Assembly: GCF_008831285.2 (NCBI RefSeq)
Contig: NC_045142.1
Location: 5,711,501-5,775,500, forward strand
DNA length: 64,000 nucleotides
DNA from: Nymphaea colorata
Taxonomy: Eukaryota > Streptophyta > Magnoliopsida > Nymphaeales > Nymphaeaceae
Direction: 5' to 3'
Every line of letters begins with the position of its first letter. The first letter of the stretch is position 1. This document shows positions 1,172-45,806 of the stretch, piece after piece. The notes below the pieces were generated by a model. That model was not told where the DNA came from, searched no databases, and was given only the letters and a program-made list of their open reading frames with translations. Position numbers and translations under genes: made by a program.

Positions 1172-1339
1172 ATGGGCGGAAGGAAGGGGGGCCCGCCTAG
1201 GCCATGATACTATCAAGCTAATGATTTTTTTTTTATATTGAAAAAAATAATATTTTTTAATTGCATAATGTATTTTATGTATTAGAATTCAGTTTGGCCT
1301 TACCCGAATCCAGAGATCAGACTGTCGGCACGCTCCTAA
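1172..1339 (-). repeat. Dispersed repeat family A copy, interrupted by the 1340-3333 element
   Basis: This matches other copies in the window (4312-4412, 33131-33297 in the opposite orientation). The shared order is a 'cctaggccatga' block, an AT-rich middle, a TTTGGAT/GAATTCAATTTG block, then 'ACTGTCGGC...CGCTCCTAA'. The intact copies continue directly past this TAA. Here the family sequence stops at the TAA that forms the left target duplication of the Harbinger-like element, so the element appears to have inserted into this repeat. Confidence 0.6.
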
Positions 1340-1715
1340 GGGTGCGTTTGATGCACAGGGAAGAATTTAACGTGGTAAATTTTTCTGAAAAATTTTTCTG
1401 AAAAAAAAAACAGGATGAAATTTAACCCTCTTTCTATTTGAGGTCATGTTTGATGCACTGAAAGAATTTAACATGTTAATTTTAACCTTGTTTGATGCAC
1501 AAAAAAGAATTTAACCTGGTAAATTTAACCTTGTTTGATGCACAGGGTAAAAAAATTAAAAGACTTTTTTTAGAACTGCAAATAAAAAAAACCCAACCGT
1601 AACTGTAAAACACATATCACATTGCAAAAAATCATAAACCATGCAATAAAAGCCATGCATTTTAGAATGAACTTGTTTCAAGGGCTTGCTCATCTATATC
1701 AGCCACAGAGAGCAT

Positions 1716-1839
1716 CACAGAGAGCATTTTAGAACAGTACATCACGATAAAACCAATAACAAGGATCGCAGCTATATCAGACACAGAGAGCATTTTAGAA
1801 CGGTACATCACGATAAAACCAATAACAAGGATCGCAGCT
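1716..1839. repeat. Tandem duplication, 58-bp units, 66-bp period
   Basis: The block beginning CACAGAGAGCATTTTAGAAC occurs at 1716-1773 and again at 1782-1839 with essentially one base changed. It lies inside the Harbinger-like element, next to the captured gene fragment. Confidence 0.8.
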
Positions 1840-1964
1840 TGGAAATCTTACATATTTCATCAATATGGAACAACTCAATCCATAAGTACGTCACTCCCAT
1901 TGATTCAATAGTACAATAACAATTGGAGTGGAATGTACAGAAACCAAATGACAACAAAATAAAA

Positions 1965-2950
1965 TCTTCCACTAGTAGAAGTGGTGAAGACTCCAATTCC
2001 TCTTTTAATTTCGTTCTTTGTAGAAAACCCATGTCTGATAATCCGGCATACACTACATTTTTCAGATATGCAAAGGTTGGACAAGCCGTTCATGCCTAAC
2101 GAGCATGTGACAGTGGTGCCATAAAATCTCAACAATTCATTGCCATCAGCAAGGCAACGTGGATGTTTCTTTGGCAACTTGATGGCTTTTATCTTCACCA
2201 TTTCTCTGTATTCTTCGAATCGAGCAAGTGTCTTTTGCATGTTATGAACTTTTAAAACCCTTTCTATTCTACCACAGTGGCTCTCCGACTTCAACCAGCT
2301 TGTCCTGCAGATAATCTCCACAATCTTTCTAGATGAATCACCTTCAACCAGCTCAGTAACTGCAAAAAAGATGACATCAGATATCACTAATCCCAGAAGA
2401 AACATCTCTTCAAACGAAGTTCGTCTAACAAAAGGTTGTCCTGTAAAGAAGGCTATGAATACGGCAGTCTGAAGAAACTTTGTTATCAGATGAATGCAGA
2501 CCATTAATAATCGCATTCGAACGAGCCATAACCTCCATGACAGAAAAGAGGTCTAATGACTCCAAATCTTGAAGTAGGTGAGATGAACATAAATGCATGT
2601 ATCGTCATTCATTGTTTTCCAACACATCATTAAGCTTTTAATACAAGTTAAAGGTAGTGCCCAATTTTCACAGGGTGTCTATGCTCAGCCACAGACACCC
2701 TCATGAATCAGAACAGAGAGCAAAAGGGAAAAAAAAACCTTCATCCACTGTATTAGAAGACGCGATCTAGAGCCTCCCACTTTCCAAACTGTTCTCCGCA
2801 TTTGTGGCAAGTCACATTGAGCTTCAGAACTGCGTGAGAACCTTCGGCTGGACACCGGAAGACCGCTCCCGCTAAAGATAGCAGCAGAGAGAGCAGAACC
2901 ACCGTGCTTGGACTGATCTTCTTGGAGGCGTTGCAGCGACGGTGATTACG
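1965..2950 (-). pseudogene. Captured fragment of a plant C2H2 zinc-finger / PARP-like-domain gene
   Basis: Read on the minus strand, an exon-like stretch ends near 2735 and encodes the first half of a zinc finger (CHKCGEQFGKWEAL, codons at about 2768-2809). It is followed by an intron-like segment and an acceptor (AG at 2361-2360). The next exon, from 2359 down to about 1965, encodes TELVEGDSSRKIVEIICRTS, then a KVHNMQKTLARFEEYREM block, a KLPKKHPRCLADGNELLRF block, and finally GVFTTSTSGR. This is the conserved core of a plant C2H2 zinc-finger family represented by Arabidopsis At1g75710. The finger is broken: after the cysteine pair the frame runs into a stop before the histidine pair. The rest of the family's C-terminal half after TSTSGR is absent. 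The downstream exon has no stop, so it is either recently captured or under some constraint. It lies wholly inside the element at 1340-3333. A low-level transcript is possible, but a working protein is unlikely. Confidence 0.7.
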
Positions 2951-3336
2951 GCACTGATTTGGGAGAAGACGAGGGCATCAGAGAGCAAGAGAGAAAGGGG
3001 GAAAGATCACCGACAGAGGAGCGGAACGGCGGCGGAGCGGCGACGGTGGGAGCGGCCAAAGACAATGAGCAAGGAGGAGCTGCCGGCTATCGCTGCGGGC
3101 AGAGGAAATGAGGGGGAAAGTCGAGCGGGGGAGGGGAAGAGTCTCGAGCGCGGGGAGATCCATCGAGCGCGGGGATTCATCGAGCGGGTGGAATTCCACC
3201 CGCTCGTGTTACGTGTTAAACGGGGGTGAATTTCACCTCGTTTGACACATGTTTAGGTCGGGCGGGTGAAATTTCACTCGCCCGTACGGTTTTTTCTGAA
3301 AAATCGGAATTTATTTAGGAATCAAACGCCCTCTAA

Positions 3337-4311
3337 AAAAACTACAAGTAGTGAAAATCTATTGACAAAATATCTGCTTGGGAATAGCACCTGTTAACTA
3401 TAGATAAACTACTTTTACTTTTACTAGTCGTGTGTGGTGCAAGTCTTCAGTTGGTATATTTTTGCGACTGACAAGTACATATGCAAGTACATATGCAATA
3501 GATAGTGGTACATGATCGTATACTTTCTCTACTTTGAATAATTTTGCAAATGTCTAAGCTTTTTTGGTCACTCCTTTCATACTTTATGTTGTTTCAGCAA
3601 AACATGTTTACATTTAATAATGATTTCATTTATCAGGTGCCCCTACCATATAATGAACACAATGTCAAGATTAGTTAAAGTGCATAGAGGAACAGAAAAA
3701 TTACCATATAATCAGCACGATGTGAAAATTACTTAAAAGTGCATAAAAGAACACAAAAAGCAATACTTGGATGTTAACTGAAGTAAAAGATGCTCATATT
3801 TAATATGTTAAGATAAATATGTTGTTGCCATATGTAAATTGGTTGTAAATTATAGCTGAAATATGTGACCCATTTTTTTCTAGATTGGTTTTTATTTTTA
3901 ATTTCAAGACCCAAATTGATGTTGCAATAAAGCTTGGAGTTCCTATTGCTTTTTTTTTTTTTGGTTTCTTTCTGTTGACCCTTTTTCCTTTTAAATAAAT
4001 ACTTAGTGTTTACCTTCTTGACCTTTTGATATCTTGGTTTTGTACATAGTTCTTAACAAATATAATAAGGACGTCATGTGTTCGTTCATGATTTATTTAT
4101 TTGAATCCTACATGAGGTTTGAACCCATATGTAATGGTGGTTGAGTGGATTGTGTTCATTTATGGGCTTTACTGCAACCCTTTTATCTGGAGGACTGATA
4201 ATTATATTTTTCTCACTTCAGTAGAGTGGCCACGCTACTGAATGGAAGCTTAACTTGGTTTGAGAATTTTTTTGTACGTCAAATAATTTTCATTAAAAAA
4301 TATATATATAT
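3337..4311. other. AT-rich intergenic stretch, no gene seen
   Basis: Nothing beyond poly-T runs and short AT repeats is visible. No codon pattern or RNA gene was recognised. Confidence 0.55.
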
Positions 4312-4412
4312 TTTAATTATACTTTGTATTTTTTGGATTTGAATTCAATTTGACCCTACCCAGATCCAAAGGTTGAACTGTCGACCCGCCCCTAAAGAAA
4401 ATCCTGTACCTC
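4312..4412 (-). repeat. Dispersed repeat family A copy
   Basis: It carries the family A signature: a TTTTTTGGATTTGAATTCAA block, CCCAGATCCAAAGGTTG, then ACTGTCGACCCGCCCCTAAA. It shows the uninterrupted version of the site into which the Harbinger-like element inserted at 1337-1339. A second partial copy (GGTCATGGCCCCACCCTAAC and following AT-rich sequence) lies at about 4561-4678. Confidence 0.55.
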
Positions 4413-4678
4413 ATCCCGTGGATTTCCTTATATTCCCGAAAAAATCTTCTCTTCCGATGGATTCCCGCCGAATGTTGCTGTTCCAGTCGATCCCTTGGTG
4501 CTTGTTTTCTGGTGGGATTTGATTTTCCGACAACCTACCTTTGATCCCCTTTCGCATGGTCGGAGCAGCGCCTAGGTCATGGCCCCACCCTAACTAACTT
4601 AAAAAAAAGTTTACATTGGAAAAATAAAAAATTGTTAGTTGTGCAATGTATTTTTTTTATTTGAATTCAAATTAAAAT

Positions 4679-6589
4679 AGAGCTTGCATGTTAGATATGG
4701 GATGTCTCCGCAGAGACATTTGCATGCTGGATATAAAGTTTCTATTCTAAATATGAAGAAACTATTTACTACTGCTGCCTTCTTTACAAGCTACATATGA
4801 GCTACTGACTTCATGCTATGCGAGAAATGGAGTTACTTTTCATGAGTATAGATAGCACTGATTCCTTGCTTTCAGACAACCATGTGCATGTATTATACTC
4901 ATGTCGTAAATTTCAACTATTTGGTCTAGAAAAAGCATTAGACCCAATAATGTCAAAGAAACAATTACAAGAATGAGGATTCAGTTTCATGTTATATATT
5001 CGATAAAGTAAGAAAAGAAGAGAACACCACCAATTTAGAATATCAGCAAAAGAATAAATTTAAATAGTTAAACTGAGCTGTTTTGGACAAATATAAGCCT
5101 TTGTAAGATTGTAACTAAATCTGTAGTTATTGCAAGTGTTGTTACATGTAGTTTATCTTCTTTCAATTTGTAAGGGAAATTTACAACCGTTTCGAAGGAA
5201 TGGTCCTCAATAAAAGGAGCTGTTACATTACTAAATATTTGATACTAGAGTGACCGACCTTTTAGAGGTTGCATGATCACCTAAGATTTAAAATCTATGA
5301 ATTTTTTATACTGGGGCATGCCTTTGCAGATATGGCATAAGATTATGGTAAAATCCATTATCCATATATAATTCGTCGATCTTAAGTCATACTCGAGTGC
5401 CATGCTTGAAATTGTGGTTTTATATGTGCTTTTGCATCAAGAAAATCACAGATTTAAGATCAGATATATGGGATAGGATTTGATCTTAAATCTACTCGAA
5501 ATTTTAAGTCGGAGACAATCAAACGCCCCGTAGGTTGTGAAATTTTAAGTTTTTATTTATTTATTTCAAACCGGCATATTATATCCTTTTTGGTAACAGA
5601 AAGCGGTCATCTTGAGGTGATTTAAAAAAAAAAAGCACTTAAACAAGACGGAACAAAGGAAGAAAAATTTTGCACAAAAATTGCAGTGTCGATACGGATA
5701 TGAGCACAAATTTAATTTACTAAGGTTCGAGTTGAATATTGATTTTTTCCCTGATTGGTGCCATTATTATGACTGGTTCTCACAGGCACGAAAAAGTGAG
5801 CGAGCATAGCGTGAAAATTTGGGTAATAAATACTGATCAGTTCTTTTTAAGGCTTATTTCTCTTTTCCTGTTTAATTTTACTTATAATTTTAGGAAACAA
5901 ATTTTCTAGTAACGGTCACGTCTTCTTCGAAGTAAGCTTTCGTTGTAGAAAACTAAATACATTTTCTCAATATTGTGTTCTCAAATTACACTTTTATGCT
6001 TTTCCACTTTTATCAAATCCACATGCCATTTGAAAAGGAAAAATACATAGTTTAAAACATTGCAAGAAACTATAACTAAAAAATACATAGTTTAAAATAC
6101 TGCAAGAAATTATTACTACTGTTTTCTGCTTCTCAAATTAACGGAAATCTTTTTTTTTTTTTTTTAATACAAGGGAAATATACATGATTTGCATGTTGTT
6201 TTTAGCTTGTAGTGTGAAATGTAGGTAAAAAAACGGGGCCATTAGGAAATCAATTAGTTTGAAAATTAATTTTCCATAGGAACATTAACACCATTCAAAC
6301 ATATATATATAAACGTTGTCACATTTTTTCTCAAATTTCTGAAATCATGGGAAAGAAATATAGAAGGAGATGGGCTAACTTCTTATTTCAATTAAAAAAT
6401 AATTTAAAATATTTTGAATTGATTTGAAAATAAAAATGGAGGGAATCAGCCCATACATTCTGATCCAAGCAACAAGGATTACTAGAATATGCTCTGATGA
6501 CCTGAATCTCGATACTTAATTCGGACCTGCTGCTATCTGGCCACACCACTTTAAATCAGCCGGATATGAAGAAAAAAAGAAAACGTTTG
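4679..6589. other. Intergenic, AT-rich, with one Harbinger-like terminus
   Basis: No gene is seen. At 5517-5529 the sequence AATCAAACGCCCC matches the right terminus of the element at 1340-3333, suggesting another Harbinger-family end, but no convincing left partner was found. Just inside it, GATTTAAGATCA (5451-5462) and TGATCTTAAATC (5481-5492) form a perfect 12-bp inverted repeat. Confidence 0.5.
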
Positions 6590-6782
6590 ATCGGGTTAGG
6601 CCCAGACTTGATTTTTGGATGTTGGGCCGGGTCGAGTTAGGCCCGACTCTTATCGGGGTCGAGCCGGGCCCGAGCTTGGATGTCAAGTATCGGGCCTAGC
6701 CCAGACTCCATTTTCGGATGTCGGGCCGGCTCGAGCCCGACTGTTAATCGGGCCGGGGCAGGTCAGCCCCATACCCAGGCCT
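6590..6782. repeat. GGGCCGG/GGCCCGA low-complexity repeat
   Basis: It is a degenerate array of words such as TCGGGCC, GGCCCGA and TCGAGCC embedded in AT-rich DNA. Similar patches occur at about 22285-22360, 55484-55625, 61905-62130 and 63360-63460. The frames that cross it are repeat-derived and not genes. Confidence 0.6.
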
Positions 6783-6834
6783 ACTGCTACCCTATGGGTC
6801 CTGAATTTTAATTAAAAAATGGACTCATAATTTC

Positions 6835-6898
6835 AGGATTAAAATTCTTTGTTTGATAATGCAATTGTCATTTCATCAAACATGGGAATTTTAATTCT
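6835..6898. repeat. Hairpin-forming inverted repeat (MITE-like)
   Basis: AGGATTAAAATTC...GTTTGATAA on the left pairs with the reverse complement of TTCATCAAAC...GAATTTTAATTCT on the right, giving arms of about 25 bases around a short loop. The AAATTC and TTTGAT words are common in Tourist-like MITEs. A transcript would fold into a long hairpin. Confidence 0.55.
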
Positions 6899-7367
6899 AG
6901 AATATGCGCCCTAAAAACTTACCAGTTCTTTTTATTGGACAAACAAAAAGTATTTAGTAATCCGTATTAAGCAGCTTATCTACATTTGTAATTTGTTGAA
7001 CATAAAAATACATTGGTGCAGGTGAGGTAACTGCTTGACTGCATGTATCTCTCGATTTCCATCAGCCATGCTAATGGAATATATGCTACGTGATAAACTT
7101 CACCATGGGCTGAAGGCAATACAATACGGCCTGTATGGGAGGGAGGCTATCAAACACGATGACTTCTTCCCCAAACTCAATATGCAAAAGCTTTGGCATG
7201 ACTTTTCCAAGATTTTCGTCTCGACCTTAGAATGCATCAATCATGCTCTTACTGCGACAAACAGCTAAGAAATTCCATGCCGAAGAGACATTGGGCAAGT
7301 TCAAATCTTAACCAGCGTTTGGATGAGATGGTGTTTTGTAAAGACCAATTTTTGAAAAAAAAAAGAT

Positions 7368-7420
<53 letters not shown>

Positions 7421-8637
7421 CCGATAAAATGAGAATTTATACGAAAATTTAGGGACAAGAAGTTTCCTAAACAATAGCCGCAAAACATAATCAAGAGAGA
7501 GAGAGAAAGAGAGAGAGAGAGAACCGATAAAATTGAAATGTATATCAAAATTTGGAGACAAGATGTCTCCTAGATACAAAAACAAAAGTTGGGGACAAGA
7601 AGTCCCCTAGGTACAGTAACAAGCCACAGAGAAAGAGAAAAAAATAGAGAAAGAGAGAGAGTATCAATGAAGCAGTCTATCTGGGTTCTTGGCTCAAGCT
7701 ACATTAAAAATTGTATCATTCAAAGAATCTGGTATAGTCTGTGAGCCTGATGGGTAAAAGCAGGGAGGAATTAAGAGGTACTACTTATAAAATTTATTTT
7801 TTAAGGGGCATAAATATGTAAATAAGAAGAATTACTCTGAAGCATCAATATGAAAGTAAAAGGAAGCATGTTTTTACCCACAGACTCCTCCGTGAGAAAG
7901 TCAGCCACTGATTGAATCTTCGTCCCAGGTGCAATTTTCTCAAGTCACCAGAAAAAGAGAGGGTATGATCCATCTTGGTTCTTGGCTCACTCGATGATTT
8001 AAATGCTCCCTTCTTTTTAGGAAAAGAAAAAGGAGCAAAATTTTGCATTTTCACGGCTCCATGATTCAATGCAGTTTCCAATCAAAAGCTCAATCTCTTG
8101 TAGAATGGCAAAGTTGGGACTTGTCCTCACAGTTATCAACTCAAAACCTCTCACACTTCGTATCTCAACTCCCACCACCTACTGTTCATGTTGAACATAT
8201 CCAGCACGGTGTGATCTCTGGTTTAATACTTGCTTCAATAGTTCCCAATTTTTATAAGATTCTGCTCAAAGAGACTAATCGACGGCTATATTTCTAAAAA
8301 ATTTTAGCAAGTTGGTTACATGGGTAGGGCAGAAAATAAAAAAAGGCATAAGAAACTTACTCTACGAATTCATTGTTTCAACAGAAAGTATGCAATTAAG
8401 TGCAGCCGATTCTGTTATACTATTGAATAAAAGATCTAAACTCATGATTAGATTTAGCTGGAGCTGATCTTCTTTCTGCAGCACTTCATGTTTCACTATC
8501 ACAAAGCAGAAAGCGAGAGAGAGAGAGAGTACATATCTCACAAATGCAAAGCAACTAATTAATAAGTACATTACGGGGCACGAGGATGCCAGCTAAGAAT
8601 GAAACTTCATTACAGAATCGAGAAGACAATCTCAATT
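6899..8637. other. Intergenic with microsatellites, no gene seen
   Basis: It contains a compound microsatellite, (TA)n at about 7368-7386 running into (GA)n to 7415, further GA-rich tracts at 7496-7521 and 7632-7662, and a partial family B repeat around 7770-7815 ('ttaaggggcataaatatgtaaa'). The frames at 7035-7268 and 8043-8297 match nothing I recognise. Confidence 0.5.
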
Positions 8638-9141
8638 TCAACAATCAACAGTTGGCATTCCGAGCTGCAGAGAAGGCCCACCCTGTGTCTTCTTCAAGCA
8701 CTTGGAAGCAGCACCAAACAATCGATACCAGGCCTGAAAAAAGACACTACCCACATCAGATTCCACTATAGTTCGTGTAATGGAAGAATCATAAGATTCA
8801 AAGAAGAGTCCTCTTCTACTTACTTTCTTTGGCGTTGCTCCATTTGCCAGATTGAAGCACAGAGCCTTCCCCTTCTTCTTCTTCTTTCTCTTCACGGATT
8901 TCATCGGCTTCGCAAAGAGGGGACTCCGCCCAATTGAGCATCTCCTTCTCTTCCTGAGAGACTCCAAATGGTCGCCGGAGGAACTGACGGGAAAGGTGCC
9001 CCGCGGGAGCAACGGCGACCAGATTCCGCTCTGTTGGTAGTCGAAATCGTAGGCGGTGGCGTCCGGGAACTTACCGGCGATCTGTCGAGACATTCTCTGG
9101 TCGAAGTACTCGATTGTTATGATCCTCTCGATCACCTTCAT
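8638..9141 (-). CDS. Unrecognised 167-residue basic protein
   Basis: A single uninterrupted frame from ATG at 9141 to TGA at 8640-8638. I cannot place it in a named family. Visible features are an N-terminal segment with MSRQIAGKFPD, then YDFDYQQSGIWSPLLPRG (around residues 31-49), which looks like a compact conserved motif. Two basic clusters follow, RKRRR (about 63-67) and KRKKKKKGK (about 84-92), that could act as nuclear localisation signals. The C-terminal part includes FFQAWYRLFGAASKCLKK. There is no signal peptide or membrane segment. The upstream sequence (9142-9200) is purine-rich on the minus strand and could be a 5' leader. It is GC-richer than its surroundings, as expected for coding sequence. 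It could be a real lineage-conserved small protein or a chance frame. Confidence 0.45.
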   Translation of the reverse strand: MKVIERIITIEYFDQRMSRQIAGKFPDATAYDFDYQQSGIWSPLLPRGTFPVSSSGDHLESLRKRRRCSIGRSPLFAKPMKSVKRKKKKKGKALCFNLANGATPKKVSRRGLFFESYDSSITRTIVESDVGSVFFQAWYRLFGAASKCLKKTQGGPSLQLGMPTVDC

Positions 9142-10261
9142 CTTCGCTTGCTCGGTTTAGGCTCCACACCATTCCCTCCTCCCTCCCCCTCTTTTTAGTC
9201 AACGAAGAAAGAAGCAGTAGAAATAAAAAACCATTTCTGGAGGGGGGAAAACGGAAAATATTCAAACGGTTACTTGGAGGACCGTTGGTGAAGTGGACAA
9301 AGGGAACGGCGGGGTAATTTTTTAAAATATCGGGGAATAGTGAGCTTGTAATTAATGTACACTGTCAATTTTTTCTTATTTTCCGAAAGCCGCGCAACTA
9401 CTCCAATTAATGAAGCGAATAAAATAACTTTCACAAATTAAATGCACAAGTTTGGACTTTGAAGTGATCGACCAGTTTACTGTACAGTTAATTAATGAGC
9501 AATTTTGCAAAATAAAAGTAAATGTTAAACCTTATTACTAGGAAAGGAAAAAAAAATAGGCCTTGGCTTAAACTCAAAAGAATGATACAATATAAGTGAA
9601 CCATTTTTCACAAATTGACATGAATTGACCAACTTTAAATTATAAGGAGAACTAATTATGACAAGATATTTTTTTTTTTGGTTATTTTCTTCCTTAAAAT
9701 CAAGACCAATGTCAACTAATATCCAAGAAGGAACAAAAACAAAAAGGAAGAAAGAAAACTATCACAATCGTAACCAAAACTTAATGACCAAGGTGAATGG
9801 CTAGCTTTGACAAATTCACAAGCATCACATGCATGCATCACAAATGTTTTTAGGAAATAAAGTAGCAAAAAGTTTACGAGAACGGTGGCCTAAATCACTC
9901 TGCCTCATCTTATTTGGATAACATTTATTACTAGACATGAAATCATATGTTGGATAGTCCAAACAGAGTAAGCCATTTTCTTCATGTCCTCTACAAATCA
10001 TCCAGTGATTTTGAAAGATCAGAAAAAGTTACAGAGTAGTTATCTTTTACAAATTTCTTAAGTGAATAGATAGGATTGGCAAACTGTCGAAAGTCTGGTC
10101 GTTAGTTTGATTCTCGTAAAAGTGCTACTTTTTGAACTGCAGATGGTAGATTCGATGGATATTCCACTTTCCAATCAAATCCTCAAGCAGCGGTGTACAA
10201 CATCCAGAACAAGGTGATGGGCCTTTGACATATTTGAGGTATATCCAACCATAATAGATAT
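9142..10261. other. AT-rich intergenic stretch, no gene seen
   Basis: Apart from a putative 5' leader of the minus-strand frame ending at 9141, only AT-rich sequence and poly-A/T runs are seen. No promoter element can be assigned with confidence. Confidence 0.5.
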
Positions 10262-10445
10262 GATTGGTAGACAGATCCAAGGTAGGGCCCACTTGGGCCC
10301 TTGCCCCAACCTCAATTTTTTTTTAAATTTATATAAAAGTTTACTTATTCTATATAAAAATTTTGAAAAATGATATTCGACCCTAGTCAAAATTTAGAAA
10401 CTTTAATTCGGCATCGCTCATGAAAATTTTTTGGCTCCGCCCTTG
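10262..10445. repeat. Family A-like repeat ending in GGCTCCGCC
   Basis: It begins with 'tagggcccacttgggcccttgcccc' sequence, continues with an AT-rich middle and 'tcgaccctagtcaaaattt', and ends with TTTTTTGGCTCCGCCCTTG. This is the reverse of the GGCGGAGCCA..TTTT heads seen at 22403 and 33131, so it is probably a relative of family A. Confidence 0.5.
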
Positions 10446-10967
10446 GATTGGTACATATTTAAAATAGGAAACCTCCAAGTTTGCACACGAATAAGGTTTT
10501 CTAATGAATAAAGAGCATTTATGTGACTTGCAAAACTTCAAAAAAAATTTAACTTGTTAAATCTTCTGTTACTGCAATCCGATTTAAATGCCGAATGTTT
10601 AACATCTTATGACTTATAAAGAGCATATACCTTATTATATTCTTATTCAAGAATCAGGTTTCAAATTTGGATGTTATCAAAATTTAGAAACTTTAATTCG
10701 CACCCCCCTCATGAAAAATTTATGTCTCCCCACTTGCATTGGTACATGTTTAAAATATGAAACCTCTAAGTTTGCACACGAATAAAGTTTTATAATGAAT
10801 AAAGAGCATTTATGTGACTTTCAAAACTTAAAAAAAAAAAAAAAACTTGTTGAATCTTCCATTACTGCAATTCTCTTTAAATGCCAAATAATTAACATCT
10901 TATGACTTATAAAGAGCGTATACCTTGTTATATTCTTACTCAAGAATCAGGGTACAAATTTGGATGC
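10388..10967. repeat. Direct tandem duplication of about 290 bp
   Basis: CAAAATTTAGAAACTTTAAT occurs at 10388 and again at 10678. The two following 290-bp stretches run parallel, with shared blocks such as AAGTTTGCACACGAATAA, AATGAATAAAGAGCATTTAT and CTTATGACTTATAAAGAGC. The copies differ at scattered bases and in an A-run length, so the duplication is not recent. Confidence 0.75.
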
Positions 10968-11765
10968 CATTTTTAGATCCAACGATCAAACACTAAACAT
11001 AATCACAGGTCCATATTTCTAGAAACAAAGAGAAGACATTCTTGGGACGTATATTATAAGGAATTTTTTTTCTAAGAAGACGCTATTCTTCTTATCAAAC
11101 TCTACTCTCGTAGAGGTTGGTATAGTAATAAGATCGGTTCTTCGTTTTATGTATGAGCACCAGGATTGATGCTTTATCACATGTTTGATGAGTGTGGAGA
11201 ATTTTGAGTTCGTTGAAACCTATTCATGGTGATGGTTTTTACACGTCGTCCCATCAAACACAAAAGTCGTGGATATCTTTCGGTTGTGAGATGAGATGTG
11301 ACGTTCGGCTTATTTCAACCATAGTTGTCGAACCCATAACTTGGACTCCAGAGACTGGATGACCAAGTCAAAAAGTTGATTTAGCACTCACTTGTGTTAG
11401 GTTATATAATGATTTTTATAATGCATTTTTTTTAAAAAAAATGAAAAAGGTAAAGATTATCAAGACTTGGTCTTTGATTTTTTCATCAACTAAAACTAAA
11501 TAATATGTAATATGAGTGTATATGTATACTTAGTAAAGTTTGTGATATTCAACACATTTCAAAAAAATAACGAACTTCAACATTTGAGCAATGCAGGATA
11601 AAAATAAAGAACATGTAATTACTTAGGAATTTTAGCGGACGCATGACCCACAAAATTGATGATCTGAGCCGACCATGAGTTTCTAGAGCATAGCATAAGC
11701 TCAAACTAAAATTAACAGTGGCGACATTAGAAAAATTGGTTGGAGAGACACCTGTTTAAAATACT

Positions 11766-11768
<3 letters not shown>

Positions 11769-11802
<34 letters not shown>
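11769..11802. repeat. (TA)n microsatellite
   Basis: About 16 TA units interrupt otherwise ordinary AT-rich intergenic sequence upstream of the chitinase-like gene. No gene is seen between 10968 and 12215. Confidence 0.9.
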
Positions 11803-11807
<5 letters not shown>

Positions 11808-12215
11808 TACCAGCTTATTCAGAATTGTGGACACTGGACAAAATTTGAAGCCTCGAGAAAAAGTAAAGTAATTGAAGACAAAATGTTCGGTTCTTATATA
11901 ATCTTATTTCTGCATTCAAACAAACACTTCTCATACAATTTCCATATCAAAATTGTGTGATTGAAGCTCTGAAAAGAAAACCTTCAAAATTGGATTCACA
12001 GTGTGAATTCAAGGATCCATTTGTGTGTGATTAGAGGCCTGGTAATGGGTCAAGTCCGCCCCATCTGCAGACAAATGAAGGAGACGTGGTGATCTGGAGT
12101 CAACCACTTTGTGGGCGATCAGTGCGTGGACCATTCCCGCATCTCCTCTGATTGTTTTTCTAACCAGCTTAAATTTCTCCATCCTCTGAGCAATACTCTC
12201 GTATCTCTGTCTTTC

Positions 12216-13225
12216 ATGGCTGCCTTCATCAGTTTCCAAATGCTTGGGTTGCTTCTTGCTCTCCTCTTAACGACGGGTTAGTCTAGTTTCTCTTTCTCCC
12301 TCCCTGTCGCTCTTTATACCTCTGTTTACTAACTCTGTTGATACTGTGGATCGAAGGAGGCGGAGGTGCAGAAGCAGCTCAGCGGCGGGGGCTGTTCCGC
12401 GAGTACATCGGCGCAGAGTTCAAGGGCGTCAAATTTTCCGACGTCCCAATAAACCCCTCCGTCGATTTCCACTTCATCCTCTCCTTCGCCATCGACTACA
12501 CCCCGACCGCTTCTTCAAACGGCCAATACCTCCCCACCAACGGCCGCTTCACGGCCTTCTGGGACACCGCCAACCTCTCCCCCTCCGCCGTCCTCTCCGC
12601 CAAATCCCTCCACCCCAACGCCAGATTTGCTCTCAGCCTCGGCGGCGACACCGTCGGCTCCCAGCCCGCTTACTTCTCCCCCGTCAACGCCGACTCCTGG
12701 GTCGCCAACGCCGTCGACTCCCTCTCCTCCATCATCTCCCGGTACCACCTCGACGGCCTCGACGTTGACTACGAGCACTTCCAAGCCGAACCCCCCGTCT
12801 TCGCCGACTGCATCGGCCGGCTCGTCGCCGAGCTCAAAAGGCGGCGCGTCATCTCCTTCGCCTCCATCGCGCCGTTCGACGACCCCACGGTGCAGAGCCA
12901 CTACATGGAGCTGTGGAGCCGGCACGGCGCCGCCTTCGACTACGTGAACTTCCAGTTCTACGCCTACGCGAGGGGGACGACGGTGGACCAGTTCCTGGCG
13001 CACTTCCACGAGCAAAGCCGGAACTACGCCGGGGGCAAGGTGGTCGTCAGCTTCAGCACCGACGGGAGCGGCGGCTTGAAGCCGGCAGACGGCTTCTTCC
13101 GGGCCTGCGAGGAGCTGAAGAAGGCGAATGAGTTGAATGGGATCTTCGTCTGGTCGGCTGATGACTCTAAGAAGGACGGGTTCATTTACGAGCAGCAGGC
13201 TCAGGCTCTGCTCGCCGCCGCTTGA
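12216..13225 (+). CDS. GH18 chitinase-like protein (chitinase 2-like, secreted)
   Basis: Exon 1 (12216-12276) encodes a hydrophobic signal peptide beginning [20 protein letters not shown]. The intron starts with GT at 12277. Exon 2 starts at 12357 or at an in-frame acceptor slightly downstream, and ends with TGA at 13223-13225. The product is about 302-309 residues. The family signature [20 protein letters not shown] opens the mature protein. The GH18 catalytic motif DxxDxDxE is intact as [11 protein letters not shown], with the acid Glu near residue 160. Conserved [20 protein letters not shown] and [10 protein letters not shown] blocks follow. These belong to the plant 'chitinase 2-like' / RobpsCRA branch of GH18, secreted or vacuolar proteins that hydrolyse or bind chitin; some members are mainly storage proteins. 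Four acceptors in the same frame (exon starting at 12357, 12372, 12375 or 12378) could vary a few residues at the signal-peptide cleavage region. Exon 2 is very GC-rich against AT-rich flanks. Confidence 0.88.
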
Positions 13226-25010: not shown

Positions 25011-25056
25011 TTGACCAAATAAAAATTAAAAACTGCACCAGTTGGGCCTATAAAAG
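25011..25056 (+). promoter_or_regulatory. Core promoter of the proline-rich protein gene
   Basis: A clear TATA box, TATAAAAG (25049-25056), lies 67 bases before the start codon. This places transcription start at about 25080 and leaves a leader of roughly 40 bases. A W-box core TTGACC (25011-25016) lies just upstream. In plants that motif is bound by WRKY factors, so stress or defence control is possible but unproven. Confidence 0.6.
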
Positions 25057-25122
25057 GAGTCGTGTGCTTATCCCACATCATATTCTGAGCTCCTCTTTGG
25101 ATTCCTACTATCTTCTCTTGCC

Positions 25123-25977
25123 ATGGGAAAGCTTGAGCTAATTAGTCTTCTAGTTGTGATCCTCTTCCACAGTAGAGCAACTGTTGCCTGCCCAGTATGC
25201 AACCTCCCACCATTGCCTCCTAAGCAACCTCCCAGGCTCTGGAGTCCACCACCACCCTCCCCACCATTGCTACCGCCACCGCCGCCACCATCGCCACCAC
25301 CGCCATCACCATCCCCTCCTCCACCCTATGTTGAGCCACCTCCTAAGGTCACTCCATGCCCACCACCACCGCCAGTATATGTGCCGCCACCTGTTCCGAA
25401 GCTCTCACCGCCGCCGCCGCCACCGGTTCCAAAGCAGTCACCACCCCCACCGCCAGTGTATGTGCCGCCACCAGTTCCAAAGCAATCACCACCCCCACCA
25501 ACAGTGTATGTGCCGCCATCGGTTCCAAAGAAATCACCACCACCACCTCCAGTGTATGTGCCGCCACCAGTTCCAAAGCTGTCACCACCACCACCACCTG
25601 TGCCAAAGCTATCACCACCACCACCACCACCACCATATGTTGTGCCCAATCCGCCTCCTAGTAGCACGCCATGTCCTCCCCCACCTCCAGCCATGGTGCC
25701 GAGCCCGCCAACAGGCCAGACATGCCCCATCGATGCGCTAGAGTTGGGTGCATGTGTGGACCTGCTGGGCGGGCTGGTGCACATAGGGCTGGGCAATGAG
25801 ATAAAGGAGACCTGCTGCCCTGTGCTGGAAGGGCTGGCAGACCTGGACGCAGCGGTCTGCCTCTGCACCGCCATTAAAATGGAGCTCCTGAATATCAGCC
25901 TCATCCTCCCTGTGGCACTCGATGTACTTGTCACCTGTGGGAAGAACCCACCCGCCGATTACCAGTGCCCCGCCTGA
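25123..25977 (+). CDS. Hybrid proline-rich protein (HyPRP) with eight-cysteine domain
   Basis: Intronless gene for 284 residues. Residues 1-22 (LELISLLVVILFHSRATVA) are a secretion signal. Residues ~27-200 are a proline-rich wall-protein region with runs of PPPP and repeats of the type VYVPPPVPK(L/Q/K)SPPPP. Residues ~203-284 are the eight-cysteine motif of the plant LTP/2S albumin superfamily, with all eight cysteines in the order C-C-CC-CxC-C-C (CPIDALELGAC, ETCCPVL, VCLCTAI, VTCGK, YQCPA). HyPRPs of this type are exported to the wall or apoplast. The proline-rich part is thought to bind wall polymers, and the cysteine domain may hold a hydrophobic ligand. The CCACCx DNA repeats are prone to slippage, so length may vary between alleles. 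A long minus-strand frame over the repeat reflects base composition only. The exact physiological role is unknown. Confidence 0.93.
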   Translation: MGKLELISLLVVILFHSRATVACPVCNLPPLPPKQPPRLWSPPPPSPPLLPPPPPPSPPPPSPSPPPPYVEPPPKVTPCPPPPPVYVPPPVPKLSPPPPPPVPKQSPPPPPVYVPPPVPKQSPPPPTVYVPPSVPKKSPPPPPVYVPPPVPKLSPPPPPVPKLSPPPPPPPYVVPNPPPSSTPCPPPPPAMVPSPPTGQTCPIDALELGACVDLLGGLVHIGLGNEIKETCCPVLEGLADLDAAVCLCTAIKMELLNISLILPVALDVLVTCGKNPPADYQCPA

Positions 25978-30089: not shown

Positions 30090-31581
30090 GCAAAAAATCG
30101 ATACATGTTTTCCGCATTCTAGATCTTAAAGTTATCGAGCCGAGCCGAGCCGAACCGACACCTCAATTTTACCATGCTTAGTTTGCGCACCGACGATCCA
30201 AGGGCAAAATTGCTTGCATTACATGTGATGTAGATTTTTTCCATCTTGAGATGTAGAAAGCTAGTTTTCTGTCACTTCTCTTGTGGGCCAAGATGCACAC
30301 ACCAGTCCTTGGTGATCTTGTTTGTGGTTTGGGTGGCGCCCTCACTGGGTGGTCGCAATCAGCCAGCCCATAAGTGTGACCCATGGCACATGCATTTGCA
30401 CTACAAGCCAACTTAGAATGCTGCAAGAGAAAAGTTTAAAGTTCAATGTTCAAGTCCTTTGGACGTACGCACCTGCCAACCTAACGCGGTATATGGTTTT
30501 TTAAATATCAATCAACTCTATGTCAGTCACCATATGAATAAAAAAATATTAAAGTTACAGTTTATTATTTCAATGTGAAAAGAATGATATAAAATGAGCA
30601 ACACCAAGTGGGTTGAATGATGGTTTGGAATTTTAGTTCAAGAATGAAAACTCCTCTTCAAATTGGAATTGAATCCAAATTAGAGGTTTAAGTTTCTTAA
30701 TTCGAAAAACAAAGTACTTGGTTTGTTTAATAATTCTAATTTCTTAAAAATTAGCAATTTGGTTTCAGGTATACCAAACGCCCCCCAACAGAAATCACTA
30801 AGAAAATATGATAATACGATGTCCATCGCTTTAGCACTGTAGTAAAAAATATGCATTCTTAAGGGATTACTGCAAAATTGAAGCAAATTCATGAAACAAT
30901 AGAACTAGGTGTTCATGGATCAACCCAACTCATAAAGTATTTTATTTAACAAGCCAAAGAAGCTTGAAAAGTATTTTATTTAACAAGCCAAAGAAGCTTG
31001 AAAATAGTAACAATTTGTTACTTTTCATTTTTCTGCTCACTGACTCTAAGCTTTCTCACCTAGCTAGGCACCAGCTCGAGGCCTAAGTAGCTAGCCAAAT
31101 GAATCTTTTGTTTTCTTGTATTTTGCTTTTACAGAAGATTTTCTTTTTAACCTTTTCTATGCTAGAAAACAGCTTTATGAACTCAAAGTTTCGTTTGTAT
31201 TATCAAAAACCCAATATCCACCTTACAGATTTCTTACATGGATTTTAGTGAACATATGTCTGATAAATTATCTACAGTGCCAATGATTTCATAGAACGGC
31301 CACTTGACCGATGGCTTCATATGTGATTCTATCACCAACTGCTTCACTCTCACACACACGGTCTGATGCATTATTACGAAAGACCGAGGATTTCTCCATC
31401 CAAACCCGGAGGAAGAAATCCACAAATTCTCTCTCTCTCTCTGTGTGTAATCCTCTAGTCATTCAGATATGCATCTAATCACAATCACTCAATAGAATGC
31501 ATCGGGTGAATGTAATTAAATACACTAATATGATATGAGAGGACGGAGGATTATCTGTCCAATCATAACTACTCAATAGAT

Positions 31582-33130: not shown

Positions 33131-33297
33131 CAGAGGTAGAGCCAGGATTTTCTTTAAGGACGGGCCGACAGTCCAACCTTTGGATCTGGGTATGGACAAA
33201 TTGAATTCGAATCCAAAAAATACATGGCAATTAAAAATTTATATTTTTTTCAATGTAATTTTTTTTTTTCCGTTGACCAGGGTGGGGCCATGACCTA
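33131..33297 (+). repeat. Dispersed repeat family A, fullest copy
   Basis: Head AGAGCCAGGATTTTCTTTAA, then GGACGGGCCGACAGTCCAAC, CTTTGGATCTGGGTATGG, an AATTGAATTCGAATCC block, AT-rich sequence and the tail AGGGTGGGGCCATGACCT. It defines the uninterrupted order of the family. Immediately before it (32800-33130) no gene is seen. Confidence 0.65.
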
Positions 33298-33730: not shown

Positions 33731-36700
33731 TCAAACTTTTGGCGTGGCGACTGCCCCTCTGCATTTCAACAACGATGAAACAACTGCATTAATGTCCGGC
33801 CGTTGGTCTGGAATCTGGGAGCAACAAGACGAGGCCAACTGTAGGAGCATGGTGACCTTTCTATTTTCCAATTTCGACCACCCGTGATGCACAAGATACT
33901 CGTCTATGACGTCGGAAACACCAGTTGTTCCACCGGAGAGAGCACCGTCGACCCAGTCTTTTAGAGTGGAAGTTTCTTGGTTCCCTGAGTTCATCGTCGC
34001 TGTAGGCCGCTTCCCGGTCAGGATCTCCATGATCACTATGCCCAGGCTGAAAACATCCGCATTCGTTGCCACCCTTCTCGTATAAGCAAATTCTGCGGCA
34101 CGAAAAGGCAGAAACAGGAAACAGTTAAAGACAGTGAAGGATGCACATGTCAAGTGAAAATCTGCTCTTACATATCTAATCAATTTTCCCAACAGAAAGG
34201 AAGCAACATCATGAACAGATATGCTTTAATAGATAGCAAATTCTTGAACGCATTGGAACAACACTTTCGGGGAAAACATTTATAGACTATACGTTCATTT
34301 AATTAGTGTTTATAGAATAAACAAATTATAAAAGCAATACAGGGAATACTAAAAAATTTAACTCCATTTTAGGTATTGTTTCTGTTTCATCATGATAAGC
34401 TTTCAATAGTTTCAGAATGTTGTGATACACCATGTAAAAGAAACTGGCAAAAGAAAAAAAAAAAACCTGGTGCCATGTAGCCAATAGTGCCCTGAAATGC
34501 AGATGAAGAAGACGGGTTGCTCCCATCTTGACGATGAACTCCTAAAATTCTAGAAGTCCCAAAATCACTGACATGTGCAACCCAGTCTCTGTCCAGCAAA
34601 ATGTTCGAAGGTTTTATATCACAATGGATGATAGGGAAGTCATGACCGTTGTGCAAATATGCCAGTCCATTAGCTATATCAATGACAACATCCAATCTCT
34701 TTGATAAATCCCAACCTCCATTATCGGTCATTGCTGAACCATGTATGACATCTTCTAAGCTTCCGTTCTCCATGAACTCTAAAACCAGAGCTTTCATCTT
34801 TCCAATTTCCCACGCATACCCCAGTATCTTCACCAGATTCCTGTGTCTCAGTCGACACAGAATGTCCAATTCTCTCATGAAACTTTTCTCTGGCACATAA
34901 TTGAATTGCTCCTTCAACCTTTTGATGGCTACCACCTGGCCATCCTGAAGCCGTCCTTTATAAACTGTGCTGAAACTGCCACTGCCAATCATGTTATTAG
35001 GATCAAAGTTTTCAGTAGCCGCCTCTAACTCAACTCCGGTGTACCTTTTAATGGTCTCTGGCAATGAGAAGGACACCTGTGGATGATCCCCAGCAGTGTT
35101 TCTCTTCCTCCATCTTGCAGCAACTAGAGCTGCACAGAAGATGCTTACAAGAAAGAGGATGGAAGAAAACACTACGATGATGAGATGGGTTCTGCTGATG
35201 ACCTTGTGGGAGTTTTTCTGGCTGCAGGGCTTCAGTACTTTTGCTCCACAAAGTCCAGGGTTTCCTGCTAACTCAGACAAGTTTAATCTTTGAAGTATCC
35301 CTACTTGCGGAACATTTCCTTCAAGGTGATTGAAAGAAAGATTTAGATGCACAAGTCTGGTTAAATTGCCTAAACCAGAAGGAATACTTCCATTGAGATT
35401 GTTGACAGAAAGGTCAAGAGTTGTTAGCTGCTTCAGGTTTCCTATCTGCTCAGGGATTTCGCCTTCCAACCTATTGCTTGAAAAATTTAAATGTTTGAGT
35501 GAACTTCCTGCAAAGAAAATGTTGCTTGGAATTGGACCTCTTAGCATGTTTTTGGACAAATCAAGTGACACCAGGTTCTTGCAACCTTCCATGGTTGATG
35601 GAATACTGCCAGAGAGGTCATTGTTTGATATGTCAATGGACTGCAGCATTGAGAGCTCCCCGAATTCAACTGGGATTGGACCCGAGAAAAGATTGTAGGA
35701 TAGATTCAGAGATACCTGCATAGACTTCATAGCTGATATTGAGGAAGCAGGAATGTTTCCAGTGAGCTGATTATGGGACACATCCAAGTACATAAGCCTA
35801 GAGAGCGATTCCAAGCCTGAAGGAAGAGAACCATTAAGCATATTGCCACTGAGATTTAGTGATGTTAGCCACTGAAGTTTGGAGATGGATTCAGGAATGC
35901 GACCAGAAAACTTGTTAAAACCGATTCCTAGAAACGTGAGACGTTTCAGCTTAAAGATTTCTTCAGGGATAGTGCCCTCGAGACCATTGTTAGACAAGTC
36001 AATCAACTGAAGGCTAGAAAGGAGGCCAACCTGCCCAGGAACAGGACCACTCAGTTTATTCTTACCAAGTTTAACAGAAAGCACCTTGCTCATGTTCCCA
36101 ATCTGCCATGGAATCATCCCAGTCAAGTGGTTATAAGACAAATGGAAGCGTTCAAGATTGATTAGCTTTCCAACTCCTGAGCTCAGTGACCCGCTCAACT
36201 CATTTTTTGCCAGGTCCAGACTCCTAAGTCCAGTGCAATTATAGAGATCCTCTGGAATCTTTCCGGTCATTCCTTGACCCCCAATAGACAGGAAACTTAG
36301 ATTCTTCATATTACCAAAACCAACAGGGATCTGCCCTGAGAAGTTATTGAATGTCAATCCTACATTTTCTAGCTTGGAGCAGTTTGTAATACTGGAAGGG
36401 ATCGGGCCCTGAAGCTGATTGCCTGCCAAATTAAGAACCTGTAAGTTGTAGAGCTGGCCAATGTTTGGCATCAGTTCACCTTTCAAAAAATTAAAGCTCA
36501 GGGCTAGGAAGTTGAGGCTCCTTAAATTGGCAATCGTTGAAGGGATTGTTCCAGTTAAACTGTTTTCATGCAATGCCAAGTGTTGGAGCGACAGCAACGA
36601 TCCCAGTTCTTGGGGGATTGAACCAGTGATACGATTCTCGGAAAGATCCAAACTTATTAAAGACTTACAGAATGAAAGCGATGGTGGAATCACCCCCGAG

Positions 36701-37668
36701 AGATTGTTCTCATATAGTCTCAGTGCCATCAAATTAGTCAGACGCCCCAGCTCAATTGGTATGCTTCCCTGGAACTCATTGCCGTAAAGGTTCAGAAGGG
36801 TCAAGTTCTTACAGTTCCCCAACTCGGCTGGAATTCTTCCAACAAATTTGTTTCCGAGAAGCTGAAGCACTGTCAAGCTTCTGAGATTTCCAATTTCAGA
36901 TGGTAGTATCCCACTTAACTGGTTATTGCTCAAGTCCAGAGTTTGTAATTCTGTTAATCTACCAAGAGAAGCAGGAAGCGGACCCTGAAAGTTGTTTTCG
37001 TAAGCAGCAAAAAATTGAAGGTTGCTCAAGTTTCCAACGTTCCAAGAGATCAAGCCAGTTAGATTGTTTCTTGCAAAACTAAGATAAGCTACGGCCGAGC
37101 AATTGTAGATGCTTAGAGGAATGCTCCCATGCAAGAAATTGTTGGCCAAGAGAAGAGTGTTAAGCTGTTGCAGAAGGCCTAATTCGTGTGGTATCGTACC
37201 TGTGAGGCTGTTACTGCTTAGATCAAGCAACTGAAGGTTTTGAAGGAGACCCAGCTCAGAAGGGATGGCACCAGTCAGGTTGTTGTAATAGAGGGAGATG
37301 CTGATGAGCTGAGAATTGGACCCCAACTCCAAGGGAATGGTTCCCATGAAAGAGTTCGAACTTAAATACAGAGTTTGGAGGTTGGAGATGTTCCCTACGA
37401 ATGGCGAGATGGTTCCCCTGAGCTTTCTTCCGGGCAGGGAAATGGAGATCACAGACTGGTCAGAAGCGTCGCAGGAAATGCCAGACCAATTGCAGTGGTG
37501 ATTGGAGTCCACCCAGTCTGAGAGATAGCCCATTGGGTCGTCGAGGATTGATTTCTTGAACTCGACGAGCGCCTGTACATCTGCATTCGGTTTTGGTAAC
37601 TGCGAGAAGACGGATAGCCAAAGAGAGAAGAAGAACGAAAGCAGGAAGGCATTGCGTATTGCTGCCAT
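33731..37668 (-). CDS. FLS2: FLS2-like LRR receptor kinase (subfamily XII)
   Basis: Two exons, 37668-34467 and 34092-33731, with a 374-bp GT-AG intron splitting the GTIGYMAP|E kinase motif. The product is about 1187 residues. A second in-frame ATG seven codons upstream (37689) is possible, but MAAIRNAFLLSFFFSLWLSV from 37668 is the better signal peptide. Then follow an LRR N-cap (ALVEFKKSILDDPMGYLSDW...NWSGISCD), nearly 30 plant-type repeats (about residues 85-790), a membrane span (about 820-848, IIVVFSSILFLVSIFCAALV) and a Ser/Thr kinase. The kinase shows the P-loop IGSGSFSTVYKG, VAIKRL lysine, HCDIKPSN catalytic loop, DFG and ADVFSLG. The HCD makes it a non-RD kinase, as in pattern-recognition receptors. 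GKMKALVLEFMENGSLEDVI and HGSA match the FLS2 kinase closely. FLS2 senses the bacterial flagellin epitope flg22 at the plasma membrane together with BAK1-type co-receptors. The gene is intact. Whether it binds flg22 or is a paralogue with another ligand cannot be read from the sequence. Confidence 0.88.
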
Positions 37669-37689
37669 TGCAGTCAGAAAGTGACTCAA

Positions 37690-40600
37690 TACTGGGAATT
37701 CTCTTCCTTTGAAATGCTTTTATGATTGTTCTAGTAGACAAAGATAAGATTCTTGGTTTATCAAAGAAATGCAGGATCTGAAACGGGTCAACGTACAGTC
37801 CTACACAGCCATGAGCATGGCTTTAACAGGGGAGAGAGCACTCGATTACTTGGAGTGGGCAGTATCCTTATGGGCCATTTGATATTTGAGTTGCAGGTAG
37901 GCCCCTCAATTCCGCGGATTCAAATGGGGTCTCGTCTCTCAAAGGTTGAGCAACCATTGAAGATAATCTCGTGCGAAGGATTGGAAAATCAAGTCGGCGC
38001 TCTCCGTTTCAGACACGGTTTCCCATTTTCGGCGCTTGGAATTTTGTGGGGAGTCTTAGAAGAAAGCCATTCTGGGTCACACAGCCTTCGTTTTTTCTAA
38101 CGGTGATGTACAGTGTCCTGTCGACAGAACGCGTTGGTGGGAGGGAGGGTTCTCCTCTTCAGAGAAGATAGAGAGAGAGCACTTTTGTCACGATACGGCT
38201 GATGATATCCTGCCAATAGACAGCGAGCGTCTGTGGGTCAGGTTTTCTCTTCACAGATAAGAATGAGGGGGAGAAAGATTGTGCAAGCATCAATGGAGAT
38301 AATGGGGAATGTTTGAGTTAGAATGCAATGTTTGTCTTCAAGCGTTGACGGGGCGCTCGGTTTTGAACAATAAATGAAGTGCTATTCGTCACGGTTCTCT
38401 TGTCGCCTAATAAGAAGGCCTTTGATGCGAGGAACAGAACCTCAGGGTCACGTAATGCAGCGTCCAATGGCTGTTCCATCAGTTAGGCAGAGTGGTAAGA
38501 AACTCAATTTTGTAACGAGCCCTCTCAAATTTTATGGAAATAAAAAGTAGAGTGTTTGGTAAACCTTAAAAATAAGTTTTTTTTTTTGTGTAATTTTGAT
38601 ATTTGGATATATTCCCCAGGGGTGGAGCCGGCTAGAGCCCTCTCAATTTTGGCTTTATTATTTCGGAAAAAAAGTAGAGTGTTTGGTAAACCTTAAAAAA
38701 ACGTTTTTTTTTGTAATTTTGATATTTGGATTTTTTTTTTTTTTTTTTTGGCATAGGCATGTTCAAAAAATTTTTAGATATAATAAAATGTATGATTGCA
38801 GCATAGTACATGAATAAACAAATTGTTCGAAACCACCAACCTAAAAAAAAAAATGTAGGGCTGTATGGGCAACTGCCCACATACGTTTCTATAGTGTTCT
38901 CATTTCTGCATGGCCTTCTTAGTAGCATTTCAAACTCATCTTTTATTTATTTTTTTTTCTCTTTTGTCTTTTCCCTCACCTGTCCTTTTTTTGGGGTCGT
39001 GTCTGGAGGTTGTAGTTTATATCCTTTTGACAACGCATTTGGGAGAAGCACAACAACAGGGTTTTCAGGGGTACCTTCTCATTGCCGAATTATTTTGTAG
39101 CACACCTTGTGTAGGGGGATGTTCAATTTGTTATTCGGCTACGGTGACGTCATTCATTTGTTGTTCGATGACTCTGTCGTTCCGTCTATCAACTCTCTTC
39201 CCACCCCGCTTATTTTGTTTTATTGTGTTGTTGTCAGTATATTTCATTCTTTTTTTTCGTTTTTGCGATTTGTTCTTGTATTTAAGAGACTTTCTGTTGT
39301 CAAGATTTTGTTATGCATACCCATTTTATGGGCCCTCTCTCTCTTTGTTTTTCTTATTATTTGCAGGTGGTATTGAAAAATTGCTAAGCCGTCCATAGAT
39401 TGAAGACATAGTGCGATGGCTTCAAAATTTCCAAAACTGTTTCCTAATCAAGAAGCAATGAATATAATAACTGAAAAATCAGAGAATGAAGGCAAAGAAA
39501 ATTAATCTTGCTGTGTGTGTGTGACTACAGGTAGAATGTATAGGTCTGGATTTAATTGTTTTATGCATCTTGGCCTTCTTTAAGTCAACTCTACGTCGAT
39601 CCAACGAAGGTGGAGCCAGCCATGTGCTTATTCCCCTGCTTTTTTCTTCAGGGTACAAGCTCCTGGTCAGTCTAGCTTGCTGAAATCTTGATATGAATTG
39701 GCCTCATCCGGTTATTTTCAACGTCAAAGCTTGGACCTTACTTTAGTGATTAGTGGACATACATCATCAAAGTCATCTGATAAGAAAAAACATTGTATAT
39801 TCTAGATCCCATGACCCATGAATACTGCCCGTTTCAAGAGACATTATGATTATGGATGTTGCTAGTAAATCCAATAATTTGGATATAAGAACACCACATT
39901 TCTTGAAACCAGAACATAGTGTTCTTGAAATATAATTTTAGGGGACATGTTTTCCGTGAACACAATGTTCTTCTTAAGGAATACCCTCTGAGAAAAACAA
40001 TTTGATACATGTGTGCGTAATGCACTACTATTAATGTTGTTTTATCATTGACGCCTGAGTAGGGTTCGAGCTCGGCACTGGAACCAACCCTTCACAAAAT
40101 AGCTAAGCTCGGTGTATATGAAATAGAAACCAAACCTAGCAAGTCATAGGTCTAGAATCCGAACAAGGATTAACAGTTCATTTTCATGCGTGGACGCTGA
40201 CCCAAAACATCTTGATTAAGCCTGGTAAATGACCAAATATAATCTTCTACTAAGCTCTAAAGAAGAACTGACGTATTGAATTTTCTAGCATTTGACACAA
40301 AGAAAAAGTAGCCCACAATATAATGGAGTTTAGTGGGTCCAGGCTGGGCAAACTGAGTTGCATTATTGAGTCAGGTCCCGCTATGTCATCACAAGACCGG
40401 CTCGAGCTTGCGGTGAGTTCAGTCCGATATAGTGGACAGCGGTCTGAGCTTGACGAACAGGTCTAACTTGGTCCAAACACAACTTAGGTGCTGCCCTATC
40501 TGATACACACACTACCACCAGTCCAAGTCTATAGTCATATTCCCATTGGACTTCAGAGGCATCAAGTTCAGCATTTTGCACAAATAATTGAGTTCATGAA

Positions 40601-45200: not shown

Positions 45201-45769
45201 ACAGATAAAAAAGTTATCAACTTATTGAGAGGCTCTCTTACCAAGAAGATATAATATTTGAATTAGTGACCAGCTTCTTCTAAATATGAAGATAGAATTA
45301 CCTCCTCAGGATAAATATTCTCTCCACCACTCTTGATCCGGTCCTTACTTCGCCCTTGAAGCCATAAGTTACCATAATCATCCACCCAACCAATGTCACC
45401 TGTTTCCAGCCAACCACACTTGCAAAAGACAGGACTCAGGTTATCTGGTGCATTGCACCAGTACCCATCCATCACATGCATTCCTCTTGTTAGTATGCTT
45501 CCCGCAACAAAAGAATTGACCAGCTTTCCGTTTTTCCTTATCTGTATTTCAACATGTGGTGGTGGTTTCCCAACACAAATACCACTAGGACCTGGAACTG
45601 TTTGGCCTGTGTCACTAGAAAAGTCATGAGGACTAGCAGAAGTGCCTTGCTTCTCTGGGTTGTATAAGGTCATGAATGTTATCGAGGAGCATGCTTCTGT
45701 CATACCTACAAAACACAGAAAATACCAGGTTGAGATGAATTCAAATTCCCTCACATGGGTTCCAATGTT

Positions 45770-45806
<37 letters not shown>

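Follow-up and report, generated by a model that had tools for sequence, protein, structure and literature searches.

The segment of about 2 kb at positions 1340–3333 of the 64-kb window (the whole stretch of Nymphaea colorata DNA that was analysed) is probably a degraded, non-autonomous PIF/Harbinger-like transposon of the Pack-PIF type, which inserted at a TAA and carries a captured fragment of a single-C2H2-type gene. A preliminary description had placed a Harbinger-like element with a gene fragment at 1340–3333, between TAA at 1337–1339 and TAA at 3334–3336. The coordinates of both the element and the TAA pair were confirmed on the sequence: the stretch 1337–3336 has the layout TAA-(1340–3333)-TAA, with GGGTGCGTTTGAT and GAGGGCGTTTGAT as inverted ends (Table 1). 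These ends had been called near-perfect, which is too strong a term for 13-base ends that agree at 11/13 positions. A Harbinger-like element is still the best reading, although its assignment to the superfamily depends on a TAA of 3 bp and the appearance of the ends.

Table 1. Features of the putative element and its boundaries (positions in the 64-kb window).
Feature	Position	Strand	Basis
Putative target-site duplication, left TAA	1337–1339		Sequence; alignments to sister copies of the flanking repeat stop at 1339 / 1337
Left terminal inverted repeat, GGGTGCGTTTGAT	1340–1352	+	End comparison
Left subterminal array with exact copies of GTTTGATGCAC at 1346, 1448, 1490 and 1533	1346–1560	+	Repeat search
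58-bp direct repeat in filler (1716–1773 and 1782–1839, 98%)	1716–1839	+	Self-comparison
Exon 2-like piece, open, TELVEGDSS...GVFTTSTSGR	1966–2359	-	Translation; end point presumed from family resemblance
Intron-like stretch, acceptor TTTTTTGCAG ending at 2360	2360–2764	-	Sequence
Exon 1-like piece, hydrophobic stretch followed by CHKCGEQFGKWEALD	2765–2977	-	Translation
GC- and CpG-rich stretch, 58–65% GC per 100 bp	2840–3239		Composition
Perfect 26-bp palindrome, close to right end	3181–3206		Palindrome search
Copy of left subterminal unit 1518–1538	3225–3245	+, direct	3/21 mismatches
26-bp palindrome, 24/26, close to right end	3259–3284		Palindrome search
Right terminal inverted repeat, GAGGGCGTTTGAT	3321–3333	-	11/13 against the left one
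Putative target-site duplication, right TAA	3334–3336		Sequence

The 3-bp TAA or TTA duplication by which PIF/Harbinger elements are recognized is present at the two boundaries, though in combination with the ends it is found at the level of chance. We searched for pairs of 13-mers that are at least 11/13 complementary, lie 300–5000 bp apart and are flanked on either side by an identical TAA or TTA; the window holds 13 such pairs, compared with an average of 9.3 (sd 3.1) over 60 dinucleotide shuffles. When each end also had to contain 5 or more G/C, 2 pairs remained (mean in shuffles 1.9; 34/60 shuffles reach 2). When the rule was instead tightened so that each tip had to be a G and the left end had to contain 5 or more G/C, the 1340–3333 pair was left alone, with a mean of 0.47 in the shuffles and at least one pair in 23/60 of them. 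The ends and the TAA, being at chance level in a scan of 64 kb, therefore do not by themselves establish an element. That shuffled sequence yields such pairs about as often is what one would expect if a pseudogene fragment lay in repeat-rich DNA and the inverted 13-mers and the TAA were coincidental; we consider such a coincidence quite unlikely, however, in view of the left flank and the subterminal sequences.

The left flank of the element is a dispersed repeat with sister copies elsewhere in the window. Its alignment with the sister copy at 4292–4395 stops at the final A of the TAA (1339), and that with the copy at 33157–33258 (minus strand) stops at 1337; both sister repeats continue past the TAA as TAAAGAAAATCCTG, whereas the sequence after 1339 differs. 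The break of the repeat at the TAA favours a real element and argues against coincidence. On the right side, the flank is A-rich and no resumption of the repeat was detected in comparison with the two sisters (213/300 and 254/300 shuffles score as well); the continuation of the sister repeat, found at the sisters, gave 0/1 and 0/6 matches after 3336. Because the sister repeat fails to resume there, the right boundary is weaker and not confirmed. The two sisters themselves agree with each other for only ~13 bases after the TAA, which leaves room for decay or a small deletion as the explanation of the right flank. An A-rich flank in which the repeat is not resumed would also suit a coincidence of ends and TAA, and the failure to resume would suit two separate MITE-like elements that flank an ordinary gene fragment or pseudogene, their outer ends mimicking one element or a never-moved intermediate.

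The subterminal regions bear on both of these alternatives. All four exact matches to GTTTGATGCAC in the window lie within 1346–1543. The subterminal unit GGTAAATTTAACCTTGTTTGA, picked from 1518 after the end alignment had been inspected, recurs in the 64-kb window at two further places only, 1475 and 3225, when as many as 3 mismatches are allowed, and has no match in 100 shuffles of the window. A subterminal unit present near both ends, and in the window only there, favours a real element and speaks against chance. The two ends also resemble each other more broadly: when the left 221 bp were compared with the right 164 bp, the direct score was reached by 1/500 shuffles and the inverted score by 4/500, or by 2/500 for each orientation with softer scoring. 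When the last 100 bp are reverse-complemented and aligned with the first 100 bp, the score is 38; scores as high were obtained for 4 of 1984 random pairs (2000 draws, 16 dropped as too close) and for 1/1500 GC-matched stretches. This score is not unique, since among 10,400 end positions (1600–11999) the highest peak, at 5949, scores 39; seven more peaks were listed, six at 35–37 and one, 38 at 3363, that overlaps the right end. Near the right end the subterminal unit is repeated in direct and not inverted orientation, and repeats or palindromes particular to each side occur in the two subterminal regions, as they would in two separate MITE-like elements. The TAA pair, however, is located at the outer boundaries, as predicted for a single unit, and we regard two separate elements as unlikely, while giving that reading some weight.

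Other right ends and other superfamilies were considered for the putative element. As partners of the left terminus, right ends at 5530, 30785 and 17594 scored 23, 33 and 24, respectively, against 38 at 3333, and none of them is directly followed by TAA. Motifs similar to CAAACGCCCC and resembling transposon ends are also found at 5518–5530 and 30773–30785, with no TAA directly after either. Ends of the GGG..GTTTG kind are not unique to PIF, and might also belong to a hAT or Mutator-like Pack-type element with a true duplication that has since decayed. Flanks of 2, 5, 8 and 9 bp at five boundary choices, however, revealed no duplication: the 8-bp flanks, the length that applies to hAT, match at 2/8 at most, and the 9-bp flanks, as for Mutator-like elements, at 4/9 at most. 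We therefore rejected both assignments, and consider an origin in another superfamily very unlikely. A comparison of the PIF/Harbinger-like element (run with 1340–3330) against the rest of the window gave no sister copy within the 64 kb, where it is present in one copy only.

The preliminary description had reported an exon-intron-exon fragment with its intron retained. The open exon 2-like piece and the acceptor TTTTTTGCAG agree with this, but no donor is recognizable and the exon 1-like frame is broken, so that the gene content amounts to an incomplete, disrupted fragment that includes intron-like sequence and not to a clean exon-intron-exon copy. The exon 2-like frame (1977–2357, minus strand) begins with TELVEGDSSRKIVEIICRTSW and runs for 127 codons without a stop, within a 215-codon stop-to-stop frame at 1905–2552. 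No donor was recognizable among the four GT(A/G) sites in the minus strand of 2700–2860, none of which reads GTAAG, GTATG or GTGAG. In the exon 1-like frame, CHKCGEQFGKWEALD is followed by RVF and then a stop; a further stop codon, at 2978–2980, is located directly upstream in the same frame. The frame 2765–2977 contains no ATG, and the ATG at 2976–2978 is in another frame. The GC-rich stretch, which overlaps this piece, is possibly the 5′ region of the source gene.

We tentatively assign the exon 1-like and exon 2-like pieces to a conserved plant family whose members have a single C2H2 finger, the likeness of the exon 2-like piece to this family presumably ending near 1966–1970; on the same assumption, the element's gene piece seems to lack both the donor site and the latter half of the finger. 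No Pfam family matched the gene pieces above the cut-off, and a third frame gave no match. Below the cut-off, the exon 1-like piece matched zf-LITAF-like (E 0.018), zf-C2HE (E 0.028; weak, at 15.2 bits against a cut-off of 30.1), DUF983 and BIR, and the exon 2-like piece matched Zn_peptidase_2 (E 0.033) and two weaker families. Matches to five PDB sequences (E up to 10) were disregarded, as the best two, light-chain TPR-like repeat proteins (E 3.3e-6 and 5.4e-6, over 33 residues), lack any stretch passing alone; the remaining three had E values of 0.0085 to 0.22. Pattern matches were obtained in viral contigs (14) and in prokaryote genomes (47); none of them was confirmed as a relative, which is expected for a plant gene. 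A literature search with four peptides returned no match. AT2G29660 was considered as a candidate parent. This protein has a membrane stretch at 9–29 and a DNA-binding domain at 126–149, according to a review table (PMC9237531). The spacing of these two features differs from that in the element's exon 1-like piece, where the hydrophobic stretch and the finger are ~16 residues apart, and we therefore do not put AT2G29660 forward as the parent.

A Pfam scan of 8 of the 26 open reading frames of at least 120 aa in the window found no transposase family. One of the other 18, 1905–2552, was run against Pfam with the gene pieces. Elsewhere in the window, an open frame at 12287–13222 (plus strand) matches glycosyl hydrolase family 18 (chitinase-like; E 1.2e-11), and a proline-rich frame at 25054–25974 (plus strand), with internal repeats within 25360–25629, matches the hydrophobic seed protein domain (E 4.9e-26). 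An LRR receptor-like kinase (33734–37719, minus strand) lies in two frames, 34393–37719 with LRRs and a kinase domain, and 33734–34225 with the rest of a kinase domain (E 1.1e-06). There is also a partial match to an AMP-binding enzyme at 45266–45832 (minus strand; E 1.3e-05, under the family's cut-off) and a tandem duplication of ~290 bp, 87% identical, at 10387–10966.

Capture of this kind had been thought unusual for Harbinger-type elements, a view weakened by published cases. Pack-PIF elements, annotated in maize and rice, are, like the putative element here, non-autonomous, of PIF/Harbinger type and carriers of captured coding DNA, and most of the PIF elements identified have, as here, TTA or TAA duplications (81.2% in maize and 52.4% in rice; PMC8903248). 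They were described, however, as clusters across whole genomes, whereas ours is a single copy within one window. The grapevine Pifvine-3 elements contain stretches that also occur in the genome, exons and introns among them (PMC2528002), and so resemble our putative element in having genomic exon and intron sequence inside a PIF element; their captures lie in a long 5′ region of members of a transposase-bearing PIF family, whereas no transposase was seen here. The element is likely a further example of these published Pack-PIF and exon-plus-intron PIF captures.

An ancestor of the element would have acquired, at the DNA level and before insertion here, a fragment of a single-C2H2-type gene comprising part of exon 1, intron sequence and most of exon 2. 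The capture may have involved two neighbouring elements that lost their inner ends, by analogy with the route proposed for Pack-CACTA (Catoni et al. 2019, as described in the review PMC13317346), which belongs, however, to a superfamily other than PIF/Harbinger. We infer that the element then moved as one unit with transposase supplied in trans, and inserted at TAA within the older dispersed repeat; subsequently it would have degraded, with its coding function presumably lost. That the GC-rich stretch, maybe the parent's 5′ region, and the exon-like pieces are transcribed into a chimeric or antisense RNA affecting the parent gene seems highly improbable.

A single case by itself changes little, the process being known from maize, rice and grapevine. 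If confirmed, the element would add one more case, with intron sequence, of gene capture by PIF/Harbinger-type elements.
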